DNA of 64,000 nucleotides from a bacterium. Lineage in GTDB: Bacteria > 4484-113 > JAGGVC01. This document shows positions 1,828 through 55,561 of the stretch, in pieces. The stretch spans positions 1 to 64,000 of the forward strand of contig JABRWB010000063.1 in NCBI GenBank assembly GCA_039961635.1, written 5' to 3'. The notes beneath the pieces are model-generated. The model made no database searches. It worked only from the letters and a program-made list of their open reading frames with translations, and was not told where the DNA came from. Every line of letters begins with the position of its first letter. The first letter of the stretch is position 1. The translations under genes were made by a program, and so were the position numbers.

Positions 1828-3906
1828 ATGAAACTAATTTCATTGTATTTGGTCGTTGCGATTTTGGTCGTCACGGCATCTGCACTGGCCGGTTGCAGGG
1901 GCAATCCCCCGCGGGGCGATTATGCAAATCCCGTGCTTGACGCGGCGCTTTTGGATTTGCGCGCGATGGATGCCCCTGCAGGGGCAGATCCCGTAATATT
2001 CGCCCGGCTCAAGGCTGCGCTGGAGATCGCGCTGCTCGAAAACACGATGGCGGGGTTCAAGCAATCAAGCGGCGTTCCGGCAGGACAATCCGGCAAGGTG
2101 ATGAACCTTGCTTACAATGAATCTACTGGCATGCTGACCTGGACATACCGCAACAATGGGGATTACGACGTTTCCGGCGAAGTCGGAGTATCCGACATCA
2201 CGCCGATTGCGTTGTCTTACCTTGCAATCACAAATGACGGCCTGGGGGACGACGCCAAAGAGGCCTGGATCGACGGCGACGGAAGCGGCGAAGTAGCCGT
2301 GTCCGACATCACGGCGATAGCAATCAACTTCCTTTCGCAAGTGTCCGCTTACAAAGTTATAACCGCGGAAAGCGATGCGGGGCCTTTCGCAGAAATCGCG
2401 CGAGTCCCATTTTCATCCGTAACCAAGACTTTTCCGCCCCGGTTCTCGGTCGCACTTCCCGAAGGGATACAGCGATTTATTTGGGTTGCCCCGGTCGATT
2501 CGAACGATGTTCAAGGCCAGCTTAGCAATCCGCTCGATTTCGCGTTTCCGGAAATTGAATCAATCTCACCCGCGGGAGGTGTGGAGGAAGAGCAGGTTAC
2601 GTTTACAGCCGTGGTTTCCGGAGAGCCTCCCTTCACTTACGAGTGGGATTTCGGAGGCGGCGCAACACCGAACACATCCTTCGAGGAATCTCCGACGGTC
2701 GCACTCTCCGCGAAAGGGAATTATGTCGGCAGCCTGACCGTCACGAATTCCGCGGGCAGCGACACGCAGTCCTTCGCGATTTCGATTGCGGGGCGCAAAT
2801 TTCCCGTTTCCGGCACCGTCCTTCATTTGGGAACCGGACTGGAGGGCGCGACGCTAACGCTCGACAGCTCGCAATCCGTTCAATCCGCGGCGGACGGAAC
2901 TTATTCTTTTTCCGAAGTCGAAAACGGCGACCACGCCATCGTCGCCACTCTTGAGGGCTACACATTTCAGCCGGCTACGGCGCTGATAACGGTTTCCGGC
3001 GCTCCGCTTACAGGAATCGATTTCACGGCCACATCAGATTACTTCGATGTTTCCGGAACGGTGGCATCCGATGCAGGCTCGCCATTCCCCGATGTGAATC
3101 TCACATTGACCGGCGGCGCGGTTCCGTTCCAGACGACATCGCTGCAGGACGGCACATTTGCGTTTTCAAATATCCCCAACGGCATATACACGTTGACCGC
3201 CGAAAAAATCGACATTACATTCGACCCGGCAAGCCTGGAAGTAACTGGTTCGGGAGAGCCGGTCGGCGGGCTGGATTTCGTCGGCCACTTTGCCTGCGAT
3301 TTGCAGCATTATCCTTATTGGTCAAACGGACTCGTCGTGCATCCTCAAATCGGCACGAATATAGACATTTTCGTGCAGTCGGGAGAAGGGGTGCCGGGCT
3401 GGACGCCGGAACTCGAAACCGCGGCGCGCGCCGGGGTTGTCAAGTGGAACTATATCGGCAACCTGTGGGGATTGTTCAATGTGCGGTTCACCGACGACCT
3501 GCAAAAGGCCGAAATATTGCTTTCGTGGGTTTCGTCGCTCGGGGGCGACACCGCGGGACTCGCAACTTGGAGCGGCTCCGGCGGCCAGATCGAGCTGCCG
3601 ATGACTATAGACCTGGCGGTGTACGTGCAAGGCAATCCGGTTGACGCCGCCCTCGAAGAAATGGTCGCGGCGCATGAATGCGGCCACACGCTTGGGATAT
3701 GGGATCACTCATCCTATATGGAAGACGTAATGTATCCATACGCGATGACGGGAAATCCTTCCCGGCGCGACAACTGGACGATGTTTACATGCTGGCACGA
3801 TCCGCCGCAATATACAACCGGCGGCAGAGGCCCGTCGGCCGCGGGCAAGGAGCGGGTGACCTTCAGCATAGCGTGCGGATTGGATGATATTCACAACAAC
3901 AACTAA
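1828..3906 (+). CDS. Secreted lipoprotein metalloprotease (metzincin-like) with dockerin-like, PKD and carboxypeptidase-regulatory-like domains
   Basis: 692-residue lipoprotein; the signal peptide ends in a lipobox, ALAGC, with Cys23. Residues 111-170 hold two 12-residue calcium-type loops, DYDVSGEVGVSD (112-123) and DGDGSGEVAVSD (149-160), each followed by an ITxIA helix, as in type I dockerins. A PKD-like domain lies at about 243-330 (YEWDFGGG). Two beta-sandwich repeats of the carboxypeptidase-regulatory type follow at about 340-495. The C-terminal domain has HECGHTLGIWDH (616-627), fitting HExxHxxGxxD/H, and a possible Met-turn VMYP at about 634-637. This suggests a zinc endopeptidase of the metzincin type tethered at the cell surface. 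The ATG at 1828 was chosen because it starts the signal peptide and follows a TATAAT by 10 nt. The substrate is unknown. Confidence 0.8.
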   Translation: MKLISLYLVVAILVVTASALAGCRGNPPRGDYANPVLDAALLDLRAMDAPAGADPVIFARLKAALEIALLENTMAGFKQSSGVPAGQSGKVMNLAYNESTGMLTWTYRNNGDYDVSGEVGVSDITPIALSYLAITNDGLGDDAKEAWIDGDGSGEVAVSDITAIAINFLSQVSAYKVITAESDAGPFAEIARVPFSSVTKTFPPRFSVALPEGIQRFIWVAPVDSNDVQGQLSNPLDFAFPEIESISPAGGVEEEQVTFTAVVSGEPPFTYEWDFGGGATPNTSFEESPTVALSAKGNYVGSLTVTNSAGSDTQSFAISIAGRKFPVSGTVLHLGTGLEGATLTLDSSQSVQSAADGTYSFSEVENGDHAIVATLEGYTFQPATALITVSGAPLTGIDFTATSDYFDVSGTVASDAGSPFPDVNLTLTGGAVPFQTTSLQDGTFAFSNIPNGIYTLTAEKIDITFDPASLEVTGSGEPVGGLDFVGHFACDLQHYPYWSNGLVVHPQIGTNIDIFVQSGEGVPGWTPELETAARAGVVKWNYIGNLWGLFNVRFTDDLQKAEILLSWVSSLGGDTAGLATWSGSGGQIELPMTIDLAVYVQGNPVDAALEEMVAAHECGHTLGIWDHSSYMEDVMYPYAMTGNPSRRDNWTMFTCWHDPPQYTTGGRGPSAAGKERVTFSIACGLDDIHNNN

Positions 3907-49151: not shown

Positions 49152-51854
49152 CTAGTCCGTTATTGTACACAACGGGTCGCCCACGACGACTTCCACCCAG
49201 GAGACGTAACGCATGCTTCGATACAGCGCTTCAACCGAGGTGTCCCCCTGCAAATATCTGACAAAAGCGACGCTTTCATCGCCCACCGCGTCCGAAAGAG
49301 GCTCCCAGACGTTGCCGATTCCGCAAGTGCCGCCCATCCGGATGAAATCGGCAATGAGCGATTGACCGTTTCTGCCGCCTTCGGTGAAACTCCAGCCGTT
49401 GAAACTTTCGTACGTAATGAACATCGCGCCGGGGCGGTAAGCGAAATCCACGCCGGTCAAAATCCACTCGACTCCGGGATCGTTTGCTGCATGGACGCCA
49501 TGCGAGCACAGGCCGATCAAATTCTGGCTTATTGTGTCGTCGTCAATGAAAGTGCGATTGACGAACGCGGGTGTGTCGTCTTCGAAAAGGTTTGCGCCGA
49601 AATTATTAAGAACCGTCGTTGCGCTTGGCCGCCCGTCGGCCGTTGGAGAATGCATCATGTCGTAATTCTTGTCGGACTGGTCATCAAGCACAATCCAGCC
49701 GTCGGTATTTCCCGGAGCCGCCTTCGAGCGATCCACTATCAACTTTGCTTCGTCTATCGTATATGCGTCGAGCCGGGAAACAAGGTATGCGAGCGTCAAA
49801 TCTTCGTATGTGTACGCGAACGGTAGAAATGCGGCCGTTGGAACGAGTTCCGCGCGGAACGGATTAATATTGCGACCAGCGATGTTGTAATCGGCGTCGA
49901 AAATACAGCAAAGCTCGGCATCCACGCTTGCCTCGTCGTAATCGTTGTAGCTGCTTCCGCTGGCGCGCTTGATTTTAAGCGGAACGCCTTTGCAAAGCAC
50001 AATAAATTTGATTTCATCCTTCAGACCGGTATCGGTCAGGTGCGCTTCTATTTCGGGGCGTATCGTGGAATCGTAGTAACCGCGCCGTACTATCTCCAGA
50101 TTCGATTCGTCGGGATCGTCCCACGCCACTCCGTACAAATTCCCCGGGTCTATTCCGCGGCCCGTCGTGATATCCGCGTAATATTCCGCAAGTTCCTGGC
50201 TGCCCGGAAACACCGTACTGTAAACGACCAAAACATCCTCGCGCCCCGCAACAACCGTGACGTCATGCGTGACCGGCGCGCTTACCGCGCCGTCGTTGTC
50301 CACCACCGTAAGCGTAACCGTGAAAAGCCCGGCATTCGTCCAGGTGTGGTCGGCCTGCGGAACCGTCGTCACGTCGGGAGCAGTCGCGTCGCCCCAATCC
50401 CAGTGGTATTCCACCACCGTTCCGTCGGAGTCAGTCGAGCCGCTCGCGTCGAACCGCGGCGCGGAAGGAACGAGATTACGCATCGTTTGATCCGGGCCTG
50501 TCAGAACCGCGACGGGCGCGACCGCGGTGTACGCCTGCACCGGGGAGGGAACCGCGCTGGGGATTTGTTCCGCGCTGCGCGTGGTTATCACAAAGTAGTA
50601 ATCAGTTAGCGGAGTTAATCCAGCGAAAGTGTGAGATGTTTCCGTCGGTGCCAGCGTCGCGTCCAGCGTGTAGTCTGCAAGGTCGCTTCCGCCTGTTGTG
50701 CTTTTCCAGCATAGGATTTCGGCCGCGACGGGATCGGTCAATGCATCCCATTCAATCGTCACGTTTTCGCGATCCACGAAAGTAGCGCGCTGGTTGGCCG
50801 GTGCCGCGGGAACCGGCGGCCGGAAGCTGTACGGCCTGTTTCCCCATGTTTCCTGCCCCGCTTCCACGCTTTCGGGGCCGAGCGGGACGACGCGCACTTC
50901 GTAATCGCCGTACGCTCCCAAATCGAGATAAAGCGAATGCCTCACCACCTGGTCGGCGGCCGGCGGCGCGGCCAGACCGACGGACGCAGCGAGCGTGTAT
51001 TCGAACGGCTGCGCCGACTCGGCCTTGTATCCCAGATACACGTTGTATCCGGTCAGCGTCGAAAGGTAGTTGATCGCGATTGGAGTGATGTCGGAAACGC
51101 CCACTTCGCCGTTTTGGTCTCCGTCGGCCACCGCGAGCACGGTTCCCGACGTCGCGCCGTAAAACAGCGCAATCGGCGTGATATCGGCGACGCCCACCTC
51201 GCCGTTCTGGTCGTAGTCGCCCGTATTGCGCTGGTTCCATTGAACCAAAAGCCTTGGCGGTAGGTCGGCAAAAGAAACGGAAAGAAGCCCCGGTTTGTTG
51301 GCGACGCCCGAAGGCGGATGAGGCCCGGCCTGGCTTGGGGAACGCGCGGGGCCGGGTGCGACGACGAACCTGGCGAGCACTTCACCGCGCTCGATCTGAA
51401 CCGGCGCAAGTCCGGCGAACGCCGCGCCCGCGGCAATCCTTCCGGGCAGCGATGCTTCGACCAAAGTCACCTGCGCGTCGGCAAGCGCGCCCGCAAATTC
51501 CGCGGAAACGCCGTGCCAGCCCGATTTATCGAAATGCAGCTCGGAGATTAACTCCGCAAGCTGCTGAGCACGTTCGGAGGATACGGTTACAACGGTGTTG
51601 CCGGATTCGGTTTCGGCGTACGCAGTCACGGCGGGGCCGCTTGCATAGCGCAGCGACAGTCCGCCGCCGAGTTCAATCGTGTCCCAGGCTCTGTCCGCAA
51701 GCGCGGGATAGGCAGGTGCCTTGACGCCGAATTCGCCGCCCGAGGGCGAGTTGGTGCGAACCGCGCCGCCGGTGCAGGACGCGGCGGCGAATGCGATCGA
51801 GAAAACGAGAACGAAGCGGACGGCCGTCCGGGAAAAGGTGAAACCGAAATTCAT
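49152..51854 (-). CDS. Large lipoprotein: cohesin-like, dockerin-like, FN3, PKD and TIGR03790-type (caspase-like) domains
   Basis: 900 residues. Lipobox AAASC with Cys27. An N-terminal beta domain (about 50-185) is followed at about 208-262 by a duplicated dockerin-like module (GDYDQNGEVGVADITPIA and DGDQNGEVGVSDITPIA). Then come a fibronectin III-like domain (about 340-415), a PKD domain (about 420-510, YHWDWGDAT) and a C-terminal 380-residue domain beginning VLVVYSTVFPGSQELAEYY, which resembles the TIGR03790 family. Two motifs in it recall clan CD cysteine peptidases: CSHG with His785 and GGTCG with Cys844. Proteolytic activity is inference. A TATAAT lies 43 nt upstream and GGAGG precedes the ATG. 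Confidence 0.78.
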   Translation of the reverse strand: MNFGFTFSRTAVRFVLVFSIAFAAASCTGGAVRTNSPSGGEFGVKAPAYPALADRAWDTIELGGGLSLRYASGPAVTAYAETESGNTVVTVSSERAQQLAELISELHFDKSGWHGVSAEFAGALADAQVTLVEASLPGRIAAGAAFAGLAPVQIERGEVLARFVVAPGPARSPSQAGPHPPSGVANKPGLLSVSFADLPPRLLVQWNQRNTGDYDQNGEVGVADITPIALFYGATSGTVLAVADGDQNGEVGVSDITPIAINYLSTLTGYNVYLGYKAESAQPFEYTLAASVGLAAPPAADQVVRHSLYLDLGAYGDYEVRVVPLGPESVEAGQETWGNRPYSFRPPVPAAPANQRATFVDRENVTIEWDALTDPVAAEILCWKSTTGGSDLADYTLDATLAPTETSHTFAGLTPLTDYYFVITTRSAEQIPSAVPSPVQAYTAVAPVAVLTGPDQTMRNLVPSAPRFDASGSTDSDGTVVEYHWDWGDATAPDVTTVPQADHTWTNAGLFTVTLTVVDNDGAVSAPVTHDVTVVAGREDVLVVYSTVFPGSQELAEYYADITTGRGIDPGNLYGVAWDDPDESNLEIVRRGYYDSTIRPEIEAHLTDTGLKDEIKFIVLCKGVPLKIKRASGSSYNDYDEASVDAELCCIFDADYNIAGRNINPFRAELVPTAAFLPFAYTYEDLTLAYLVSRLDAYTIDEAKLIVDRSKAAPGNTDGWIVLDDQSDKNYDMMHSPTADGRPSATTVLNNFGANLFEDDTPAFVNRTFIDDDTISQNLIGLCSHGVHAANDPGVEWILTGVDFAYRPGAMFITYESFNGWSFTEGGRNGQSLIADFIRMGGTCGIGNVWEPLSDAVGDESVAFVRYLQGDTSVEALYRSMRYVSWVEVVVGDPLCTITD

Positions 51855-53509: not shown

Positions 53510-55561
53510 TTACGGTCCCGGCGGCGGAGGTGTAGATGAGTCGTACCAAGCTCCGGTTCGCACCCAATGGACCGGCAGAAACTTGAATGGACTGATCGGC
53601 AGACTATCGTGCGTTGGGAACGGCTGGCGTTCCACAATGACATTGGACAAAATGCTGTCCGGATGTCCGGGTCTAACCCTGTAGTAGCCTGGATTTGTCT
53701 GGCTTTCAACCCATACCAAGCTATCGTAGATGGCCTGGGGATCTCCGGTCAAATTCAATCCACCCGGAGGACTTCCGCCTTGATGGCAACTTGTGCAATT
53801 CAAAGACGGCATCGCCAAAACGGTAGGAATTGTTGGCACATCCGCCGCGTCATTGAAATGCTTGCGATTGCCGCCATCAACGGTATATGTCACCGAAATC
53901 GTATCCTTGACGTTGCCGCCGATTTTTGCCGTGCACGTGATTTCATATGCTTGAAGTTCGCTCGCTACGTAAGAAATCGAACTTGTGGTTGCTCCGTCAA
54001 TTTGATCGAACGCCCAGCCGTAATCGGGATCGTCATCGCTCCACTCAAAAACGACAGGACCCGCTCCGGTCAGATTGCCACTGGCGTCAATCGTTACGAC
54101 CTCACCCATATCACCGCTGAAATCCGCGGTTATGTTCGAAAACTGAAAATCATCGCCGCCGGAGCCGGGGTCGTCAACGACTACGCCGTTCGCGGTGTTC
54201 TGGTTGGTCGTGTAGTTGGGCGGAACCGCGCTGTCGCGTGCGAGCACCAGGAACGTGTAATCCGTGCTCCAGTTGAGGCCGGTGACGCGCTTGGTGAACG
54301 GGCCGGCGCCCGCGTCGTTGTAAACCGCGGCGGGGGCGCCCGGATTGGCGGGGTTGAAGACGCCCGTCAGTCCGTAATACAGAACGTAACTCACCGGCGG
54401 CGAATTCGGCTCCGGATCGTTCGCGATGTCGGTAGCCGAGCCGAAAGTCACGTCAAGCGCCTGGGTATCGGGGACCTGTGCAACCGAAATGACGCCGACA
54501 TCACTGTCCCAAGATGGCGGGGTGAGGTCGCTTGGAGGCGGCGGTGTGCCGCCGGTCGGCTGCTTGCTTACGCCGAACTGACCGAGCGCGGCGCCGTCAT
54601 GCGGCACTGCGCGGAGTCGAAGCTGGTCGTTGTCGGGATTAAAACCGGTTATCCCTCCGGTGAACGACGCCGGAAGAACTGTCGAAAAGTACGGCCATGG
54701 GTCGAAAACCGTGACATCGCCGTACGCAAGATTAAGCTCCGCGGGCGCGCCGGCAACGGTGTCCGGCAGGAATGTGGTGCCGCCGTTCGTGGAATACTGG
54801 AGCAGGTAACCCGCAAGAACGGCCTGGTAGTTGAGCGCAATCGGAGTGATGTCGGACACGCCTATTTCGCCGCTCGAATCCCCATCAATCGGAGCCAGCG
54901 GATCGTCCGGCGAAGTGTACGATTCGTTGAAATTGATGGCAATGGGAGTGATGTCGGGGATACTGACCTCACCATCCAACGTATAGTCGCCGATGTTGCG
55001 CGCGTGAAAGTCCACCGTCAGGTCTCCCGATTCCTCCCAGTTGCAAGTCGTCAGAATGACGCGGTTTGCAGTTCCCGTCGGCGGCAATGAAGCGGTCCTT
55101 GTCGAGTCCGCGCCGGGCGAAAAAACGAGCGAAATGGCGTAAGCCTGCCCGTGTATGCCGAATGACTCATCGGCATTGGTAAAAATCACGCCGGCGTCAA
55201 CCCCGTATTTGTTGGGAACCGCGATGAAAACGTTTTCCGTTCCGGCGAAGGATGCACCGGGCGCGCTGTCGCGGAGGTGCCACGCGGATGCATCGTACTT
55301 GACGCGGGCGAAAACGCCGCGTATGTCCAAACCGGTGGCGACGACGTTCACGCGCACATCGCCGGAATCCAGAGTTTCGGTTTCAAGCGAAGTGCCCGAA
55401 ACCTTGCCGTAGGGAACCGTCCAGCCGGACGGGGTGTCGAGAACGAACGAAGGCGTACGCGACTCCGGGCCGCCGCCGCCCGTCCCGCACGCGAAGAGCG
55501 CCAGAACTGCAGCCGCAAGCACGAGCGACGCCGCATTTGAGAATTTATGATTCCTAATCAC
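53510..55561 (-). CDS. Lipoprotein with cohesin-like, dockerin-like and C-terminal monohaem cytochrome domains
   Basis: 683 residues. GTG start with GGAGGAG; lipobox LFAC with Cys25. A cohesin-like beta domain (about 55-165) contains VRVNVVATGLDIRGVFARV. The dockerin-like pair at about 188-250 reads GDYTLDGEVSIPDITPIA and DGDSSGEIGVSDITPIA. FN3- or Ig-like domains follow. The C-terminal 110 residues hold one haem motif, LNCTSCHQGG (about 586-595), then a cytochrome-like RPGHPDSILSNVI segment typical of small c-type domains attached to secreted proteins. It suggests a surface redox protein. Own promoter (TATAAT 37 nt upstream) and strong terminator. Confidence 0.8.
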   Translation of the reverse strand: MIRNHKFSNAASLVLAAAVLALFACGTGGGGPESRTPSFVLDTPSGWTVPYGKVSGTSLETETLDSGDVRVNVVATGLDIRGVFARVKYDASAWHLRDSAPGASFAGTENVFIAVPNKYGVDAGVIFTNADESFGIHGQAYAISLVFSPGADSTRTASLPPTGTANRVILTTCNWEESGDLTVDFHARNIGDYTLDGEVSIPDITPIAINFNESYTSPDDPLAPIDGDSSGEIGVSDITPIALNYQAVLAGYLLQYSTNGGTTFLPDTVAGAPAELNLAYGDVTVFDPWPYFSTVLPASFTGGITGFNPDNDQLRLRAVPHDGAALGQFGVSKQPTGGTPPPPSDLTPPSWDSDVGVISVAQVPDTQALDVTFGSATDIANDPEPNSPPVSYVLYYGLTGVFNPANPGAPAAVYNDAGAGPFTKRVTGLNWSTDYTFLVLARDSAVPPNYTTNQNTANGVVVDDPGSGGDDFQFSNITADFSGDMGEVVTIDASGNLTGAGPVVFEWSDDDPDYGWAFDQIDGATTSSISYVASELQAYEITCTAKIGGNVKDTISVTYTVDGGNRKHFNDAADVPTIPTVLAMPSLNCTSCHQGGSPPGGLNLTGDPQAIYDSLVWVESQTNPGYYRVRPGHPDSILSNVIVERQPFPTHDSLPISPFKFLPVHWVRTGAWYDSSTPPPPGP

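Follow-up and report, generated by a model that had tools for sequence, protein, structure and literature searches.

Dockerins are familiar as plugs at the ends of enzymes, and in the XDoc dyads of scaffoldins (e.g. 4u3s) an X module precedes the dockerin. Non-cellulosomal cohesin and dockerin proteins are said to have been described in other prokaryotes by Peer et al. 2009. In ANME archaea many such dockerins and cohesins are found with no evident cellulose degradation, and attachment of proteins to the cell surface has been proposed for them; some of these dockerin proteins carry up to five cohesins (PMC9012536). A cellulosome-like complex of the Cloacimonadota, an uncultured phylum, comprises dockerin-bearing peptidases and a 3,755-aa scaffoldin with tandem cohesins (PMC8542988).

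In this work we analysed three lipoproteins in a window of 64,000 nucleotides, the whole stretch of DNA under study, and describe a module shared between them that very probably is a dockerin fold nested within an fn3-like domain. The module resembles type I dockerins (Pfam PF00404; C. thermocellum Xyn10B dockerin 1ohz/2ccl and GH9 dockerin 4fl4) in its two 12-residue calcium loops with their helices, its near-twofold internal symmetry, its sequence and its fold. Type I dockerins are terminal on secreted enzymes, whereas the nested module lies inside fn3 near the N-terminus of lipoproteins, and its window copies, unlike classical type I dockerins, fall below Pfam detection. XDoc dyads likewise combine a dockerin with a beta-sandwich module, but here the dockerin interrupts the sandwich. 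In contrast to the ANME set, the nested module is uniform across about 70 lipoproteins, and neither the tandem cohesins of the ANME proteins nor a scaffoldin like that of the Cloacimonadota was seen in the genome studied here. We found no report of a dockerin nested within another domain in the open-access literature. Three features set the module apart from the known cohesin and dockerin sets: it is nested in fn3, it sits near the N-terminus of lipoproteins, and it recurs uniformly in some 70 proteins of a genome in which no tandem-cohesin scaffoldin was seen. Both Pfam and NCBIfam miss the window copies, so that proteins which would make up a major family at the surface of this bacterial lineage are listed as unknown. 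The family offers a clean system for studying what cohesin-dockerin pairs are for when cellulose is not degraded, and it provides a natural template for setting a calcium-dependent plug into a beta-sandwich.

The three window proteins are P0003 (692 aa, 1828-3906, + strand), P0001 (900 aa, 49152-51854, - strand) and P0002 (683 aa, 53510-55561, - strand). As the original prediction had proposed, each contains two 12-residue loops of the form D-x-[DNT]-x-[NDS]-G-E-[VI]-x-x-x-D, followed by a D-I-T-[PA]-I-A helix and preceded by RN-x-GDY. In P0003 the module occupies 2158-2337 (+ strand), and the span of 2158-2331 first assigned to it contains both calcium loops, DYDVSGEVGVSD at 2161-2196 and DGDGSGEVAVSD at 2272-2307 (both + strand; sequence and column counts). 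The module profile matches P0003 at 2146-2406 with an E-value of 3e-41, although this profile was partly built from the P0003 module itself. The P0001 module lies at 51066-51221 (- strand; sequence and profile match) and that of P0002 at 54818-54991 (- strand).

The dockerin-like calcium-loop geometry suggested for the module is supported by profile matches to solved dockerins, by the predicted fold and by relatives that pass the Pfam Dockerin_1 cut-off. A profile with 23 rows (A2) searched against solved structures has its best dockerin match in 4fl4_A (E 3e-4), and six further dockerin-bearing chains follow at E below 0.1; these matches also include one EF-hand protein. The predicted structure of the P0002 module superposes on dockerin 2y3n_B over 60 of 60 residues (VIA-align Z 8.3, rmsd 2.0 Å). 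In the P0003 model the module has a pLDDT of 95-98, a bridge residue at position 7 of each loop and, as in dockerins, no entering helix ahead of loop 1; Foldseek alone returned nothing below 1e-3 for this model. Pfam Dockerin_1 matches 3 of 27 intact homologues (best E 2e-4) and, up to an E of 1, none of the window's three proteins, and the module is unnamed by Pfam and NCBIfam in all three. Nested modules of relatives do exceed the Dockerin_1 cut-off, for example at G007:C11:171197-171349 within the module match G007:C11:171137-171424. We infer calcium binding from the loop ligands, which are conserved in 65-73 of 74 copies per position (loop 1/loop 2: D1 73/72, D/N3 71/68, N/D/S5 70/72, D12 73/73).

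As to the nesting, the predicted structures place the module within an fn3-like domain, in its B-C loop, since fn3 matches run across both sides of the module, and the two form one composite domain. The host domain of P0003 spans 2068-2556 (+ strand; AlphaFold model pLDDT 88.9), and single fn3 domains align with model residues 58-220, reaching from one side of the module to the other, with VIA-align Z up to 9.5. For P0002 the host domain spans 54551-55093 (- strand) and fn3 matches cover model residues 125-305, again on both sides, at Z 7.7, which is weaker on its own, as a Z under 8 may reflect a common arrangement. In both models strands immediately flank the module (in P0003, strand 79-83, the module, then strand 151-157); with moderate pTM values (0.60 and 0.69), the placement of the domains relative to one another is uncertain. 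Most paralogues share the motif V-x-D-L-x(~10)-L-x-W-x-[YE]-x-N before the module and [GSA]Y-x-[VI]...G-[PE]-[FWY]...P after it, which we read as the putative A-B and C strands of fn3. A profile of 27 domains from which the module was excised matches the chitinase A1 fn3 (1k85) over almost its whole length and across the junction (E 8e-4), and also matches titin fn3. The Pfam fn3 signal on the module-excised sequences is weak, with 1 of 27 matching at E 0.01. The original prediction took the module to be internal and free-standing; in the predicted structures it is inserted in the fn3 domain.

The profile search and genome count proposed at the outset yielded 74 copies in the module's own 2.78-Mb genome with a profile built from the three window modules, 70 of them at E below 1e-8, and this number rules out chance or low complexity as the origin of the module. 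The copies fall in 72 reading frames, two of which (L066, L068) have another copy far down the chain; some frames are cut at contig ends, so the gene number is about 70. Together the module-bearing frames amount to 57,366 codons, about 6% of the genome. All 10 genomes of the class contain the module, in 8-117 copies each. Assembly contamination is ruled out by the spread of the copies over dozens of contigs and ten genomes. A scan of 84,980 species found the module in this lineage and in three Kazan (CPR) genomes, and, Kazan genomes aside, a profile search found it in none of 182 genomes of other groups. Among Kazan relatives, 4 of 30 genomes have one or two copies each. Kazan lipoproteins with a single nested module (L095:3794-6244, L101:3740-4720, L106:3704-4543) are patchily distributed among relatives, a pattern that may reflect transfer from this lineage, possibly a host.

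The module is tied to a lipoprotein setting. A signal peptide with a lipobox cysteine was recognised by rule in 67 of the 72 proteins and by eye in 3 more, while the other 2 are cut short by the end of a contig. Each of the 70 proteins whose 5' end is complete thus has a cysteine after a hydrophobic stretch. In nearly all of them, at most one folded domain stands between the lipid anchor and the module. What follows is diverse: PKD domains were found by Pfam in 29 of 56 module proteins scanned, and other cargo includes Ig, BNR, arylsulfotransferase, subtilase, PQQ-propeller and cytochrome domains. In the window, P0003 has a short helical segment after the signal peptide and lipobox, then fn3 with the nested dockerin, PKD, two CarboxypepD_reg domains and a matrixin-like peptidase. 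P0001 has a cohesin, fn3 with the nested dockerin, a further fn3, PKD and a TIGR03790 domain, and P0002 a cohesin, fn3 with the nested dockerin, a region without named domains and one C-terminal CxxCH.

A cohesin-like domain ahead of the module had been anticipated for two of the three proteins, and it is present in P0001 (51327-51632, - strand; E 2e-22 with the A6 cohesin profile, which includes the P0001 cohesin) and P0002 (55112-55405, - strand). The P0002 domain matches 4u3s, 2jh2, 2xdh and 2vo8 on model residues 18/21-118 at VIA-align Z 7.6-7.9. In P0003 the short helical segment takes the cohesin's place. Across the genome, 19-20 of some 72 proteins, P0001 and P0002 included, carry a cohesin that follows the lipid anchor and precedes the fn3-dockerin unit; in about 50 of the 72 this place is taken by a short segment of variable sequence plus a helix. 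Searched against PDB cohesins, the cohesin profile matches 1g1k at E 1e-3; Pfam Cohesin is found upstream of the module in several paralogues, and two members of the set pass its cut-off. Chains without the module provide two strong cohesin matches (C21:5482 and C5:68377, the latter adjoining an M6-like peptidase gene), and three weak matches lie elsewhere. Cohesins were found in all nine class genomes searched, with 5-31 per genome.

No reading frame of the own genome has two A6 matches, no tandem cohesins were noticed in relatives among the matches listed, and L032 possibly has a second, weak cohesin. Glycoside hydrolases are likewise missing from the 25 Pfam families listed for the 56 module proteins, with 12 rarer families outside this listing. 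With no tandem-cohesin scaffoldin seen and no glycoside hydrolase cargo among the families listed, a classical cellulosome is ruled out, in agreement with the original prediction.

The role we favour, tentatively, is a calcium-dependent lateral assembly of surface lipoproteins in trans. In some 70 lipoproteins the composite fn3-dockerin domain would follow the lipid anchor directly or with one cohesin in between, and the nested dockerin would present its two near-identical helices to the cohesin of another lipoprotein. That partner could be one of the roughly 20 chains with both cohesin and dockerin or one of the 2-5 cohesin chains without a nested module, and the cargo (PKD and Ig arrays, peptidases, arylsulfotransferase-like and haem domains) would be kept clustered near the membrane. 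We infer that the module binds cohesins from its preserved twofold symmetry and conserved helix faces, and the coexistence of cohesin-plus-dockerin chains with dockerin-only chains points to lateral assembly; the partner identity and the location of the lipoproteins on the outer surface are presumed. Both helices are near-identical in all copies (VSDITPIALNY), loop positions 10-11 included, which fits one shared kind of partner. By alignment, the equivalent residues in the Xyn10B dockerin are S45/T46, which were mutated in 2ccl. The C. thermocellum recognition pair is Ser-Thr, whereas here it is hydrophobic then small (V/I then S/A/G), which counts against this reading. Cohesins are also fewer than modules (22 versus 75 in the own genome, 11 versus 65 in G004), and this shortfall counts against lateral assembly as well. 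The explanation as a whole, a dockerin nested in fn3 together with lateral lipoprotein assembly, we regard as about evenly poised. More speculative is the idea that lipoproteins linked laterally through nested dockerins and single cohesins make up much of the cell surface throughout the lineage, as a scaffoldin-free lattice with a general envelope role and not one in polysaccharide breakdown.

Alternatively, the conserved face of the helices could lie against the fn3 host, and a purely structural role, in which the dockerin fold is a calcium-stapled reinforcement of fn3 that gives the lipoprotein a rigid foot and binds no cohesin, is a doubtful but serious alternative. It would suit the constant position next to the anchor in front of widely different cargo, the ranking of the ligand residues among the most conserved and the variable length of the linker between the two loops among copies. 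Metal binding would not by itself call for the conservation of the outward-type positions in both helices (loop 10-11, T14, P15 and L18, assigned as outward-facing by analogy), and the presence of cohesins in every class genome searched also speaks against it.

Intramolecular assembly, which the original prediction had raised, does not survive as a general role, since most module chains have no cohesin at all. As a clasp in which the cohesin binds the dockerin of its own chain and so fixes the geometry of the stalk, it draws on the cohesin directly before the fn3-dockerin unit in the 19-20 proteins that have one, two of them in the window; the same direct abutment on fn3 makes the reach in cis doubtful, and we consider this reading quite unlikely. 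That the N-terminal composite domain is a sorting or export tag read by the lipoprotein transport machinery and not by a cohesin is very improbable, for although the domain nearly always comes first or second after the anchor, the second copies of L066 and L068 lie deep in the chain and folded domains are unusual as sorting signals.

Some further observations were made on the proteins of the window and the genome. In P0003 a matrixin-like HExxHxxGxxD peptidase motif is found at 3673-3705 (+ strand), and among the module proteins fetched P0003 is alone in having HExxHxxG. The C-terminal part of P0001, at 49197-50237 (- strand), is a TIGR03790 family domain of unknown function (E 2e-31). The single CxxCH haem-type motif of P0002 lies near its C-terminus at 53783-53797 (- strand); such motifs occur in six module proteins of the genome, two of which carry 7 and 9. 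A subfamily of the module (L109, L110, L119, L120, L071) has an inter-loop linker that is some 25-30 residues longer and contains a conserved WPxGDP-like stretch.

Apart from the nested module, the own genome has some 9 separate Pfam dockerins, which in several M6-like and subtilisin-like peptidases sit at the C-terminus or close to it; they make a second, more ordinary dockerin set beside the nested one and are a likeness to the dockerin-bearing peptidases of the Cloacimonadota. The loci concerned (L001-L008, L079, L080) also include lipoproteins that have a single cohesin but lack the nested module, and the separate dockerins and module-free cohesin lipoproteins could possibly form a small peptidase-docking system in the same genome.
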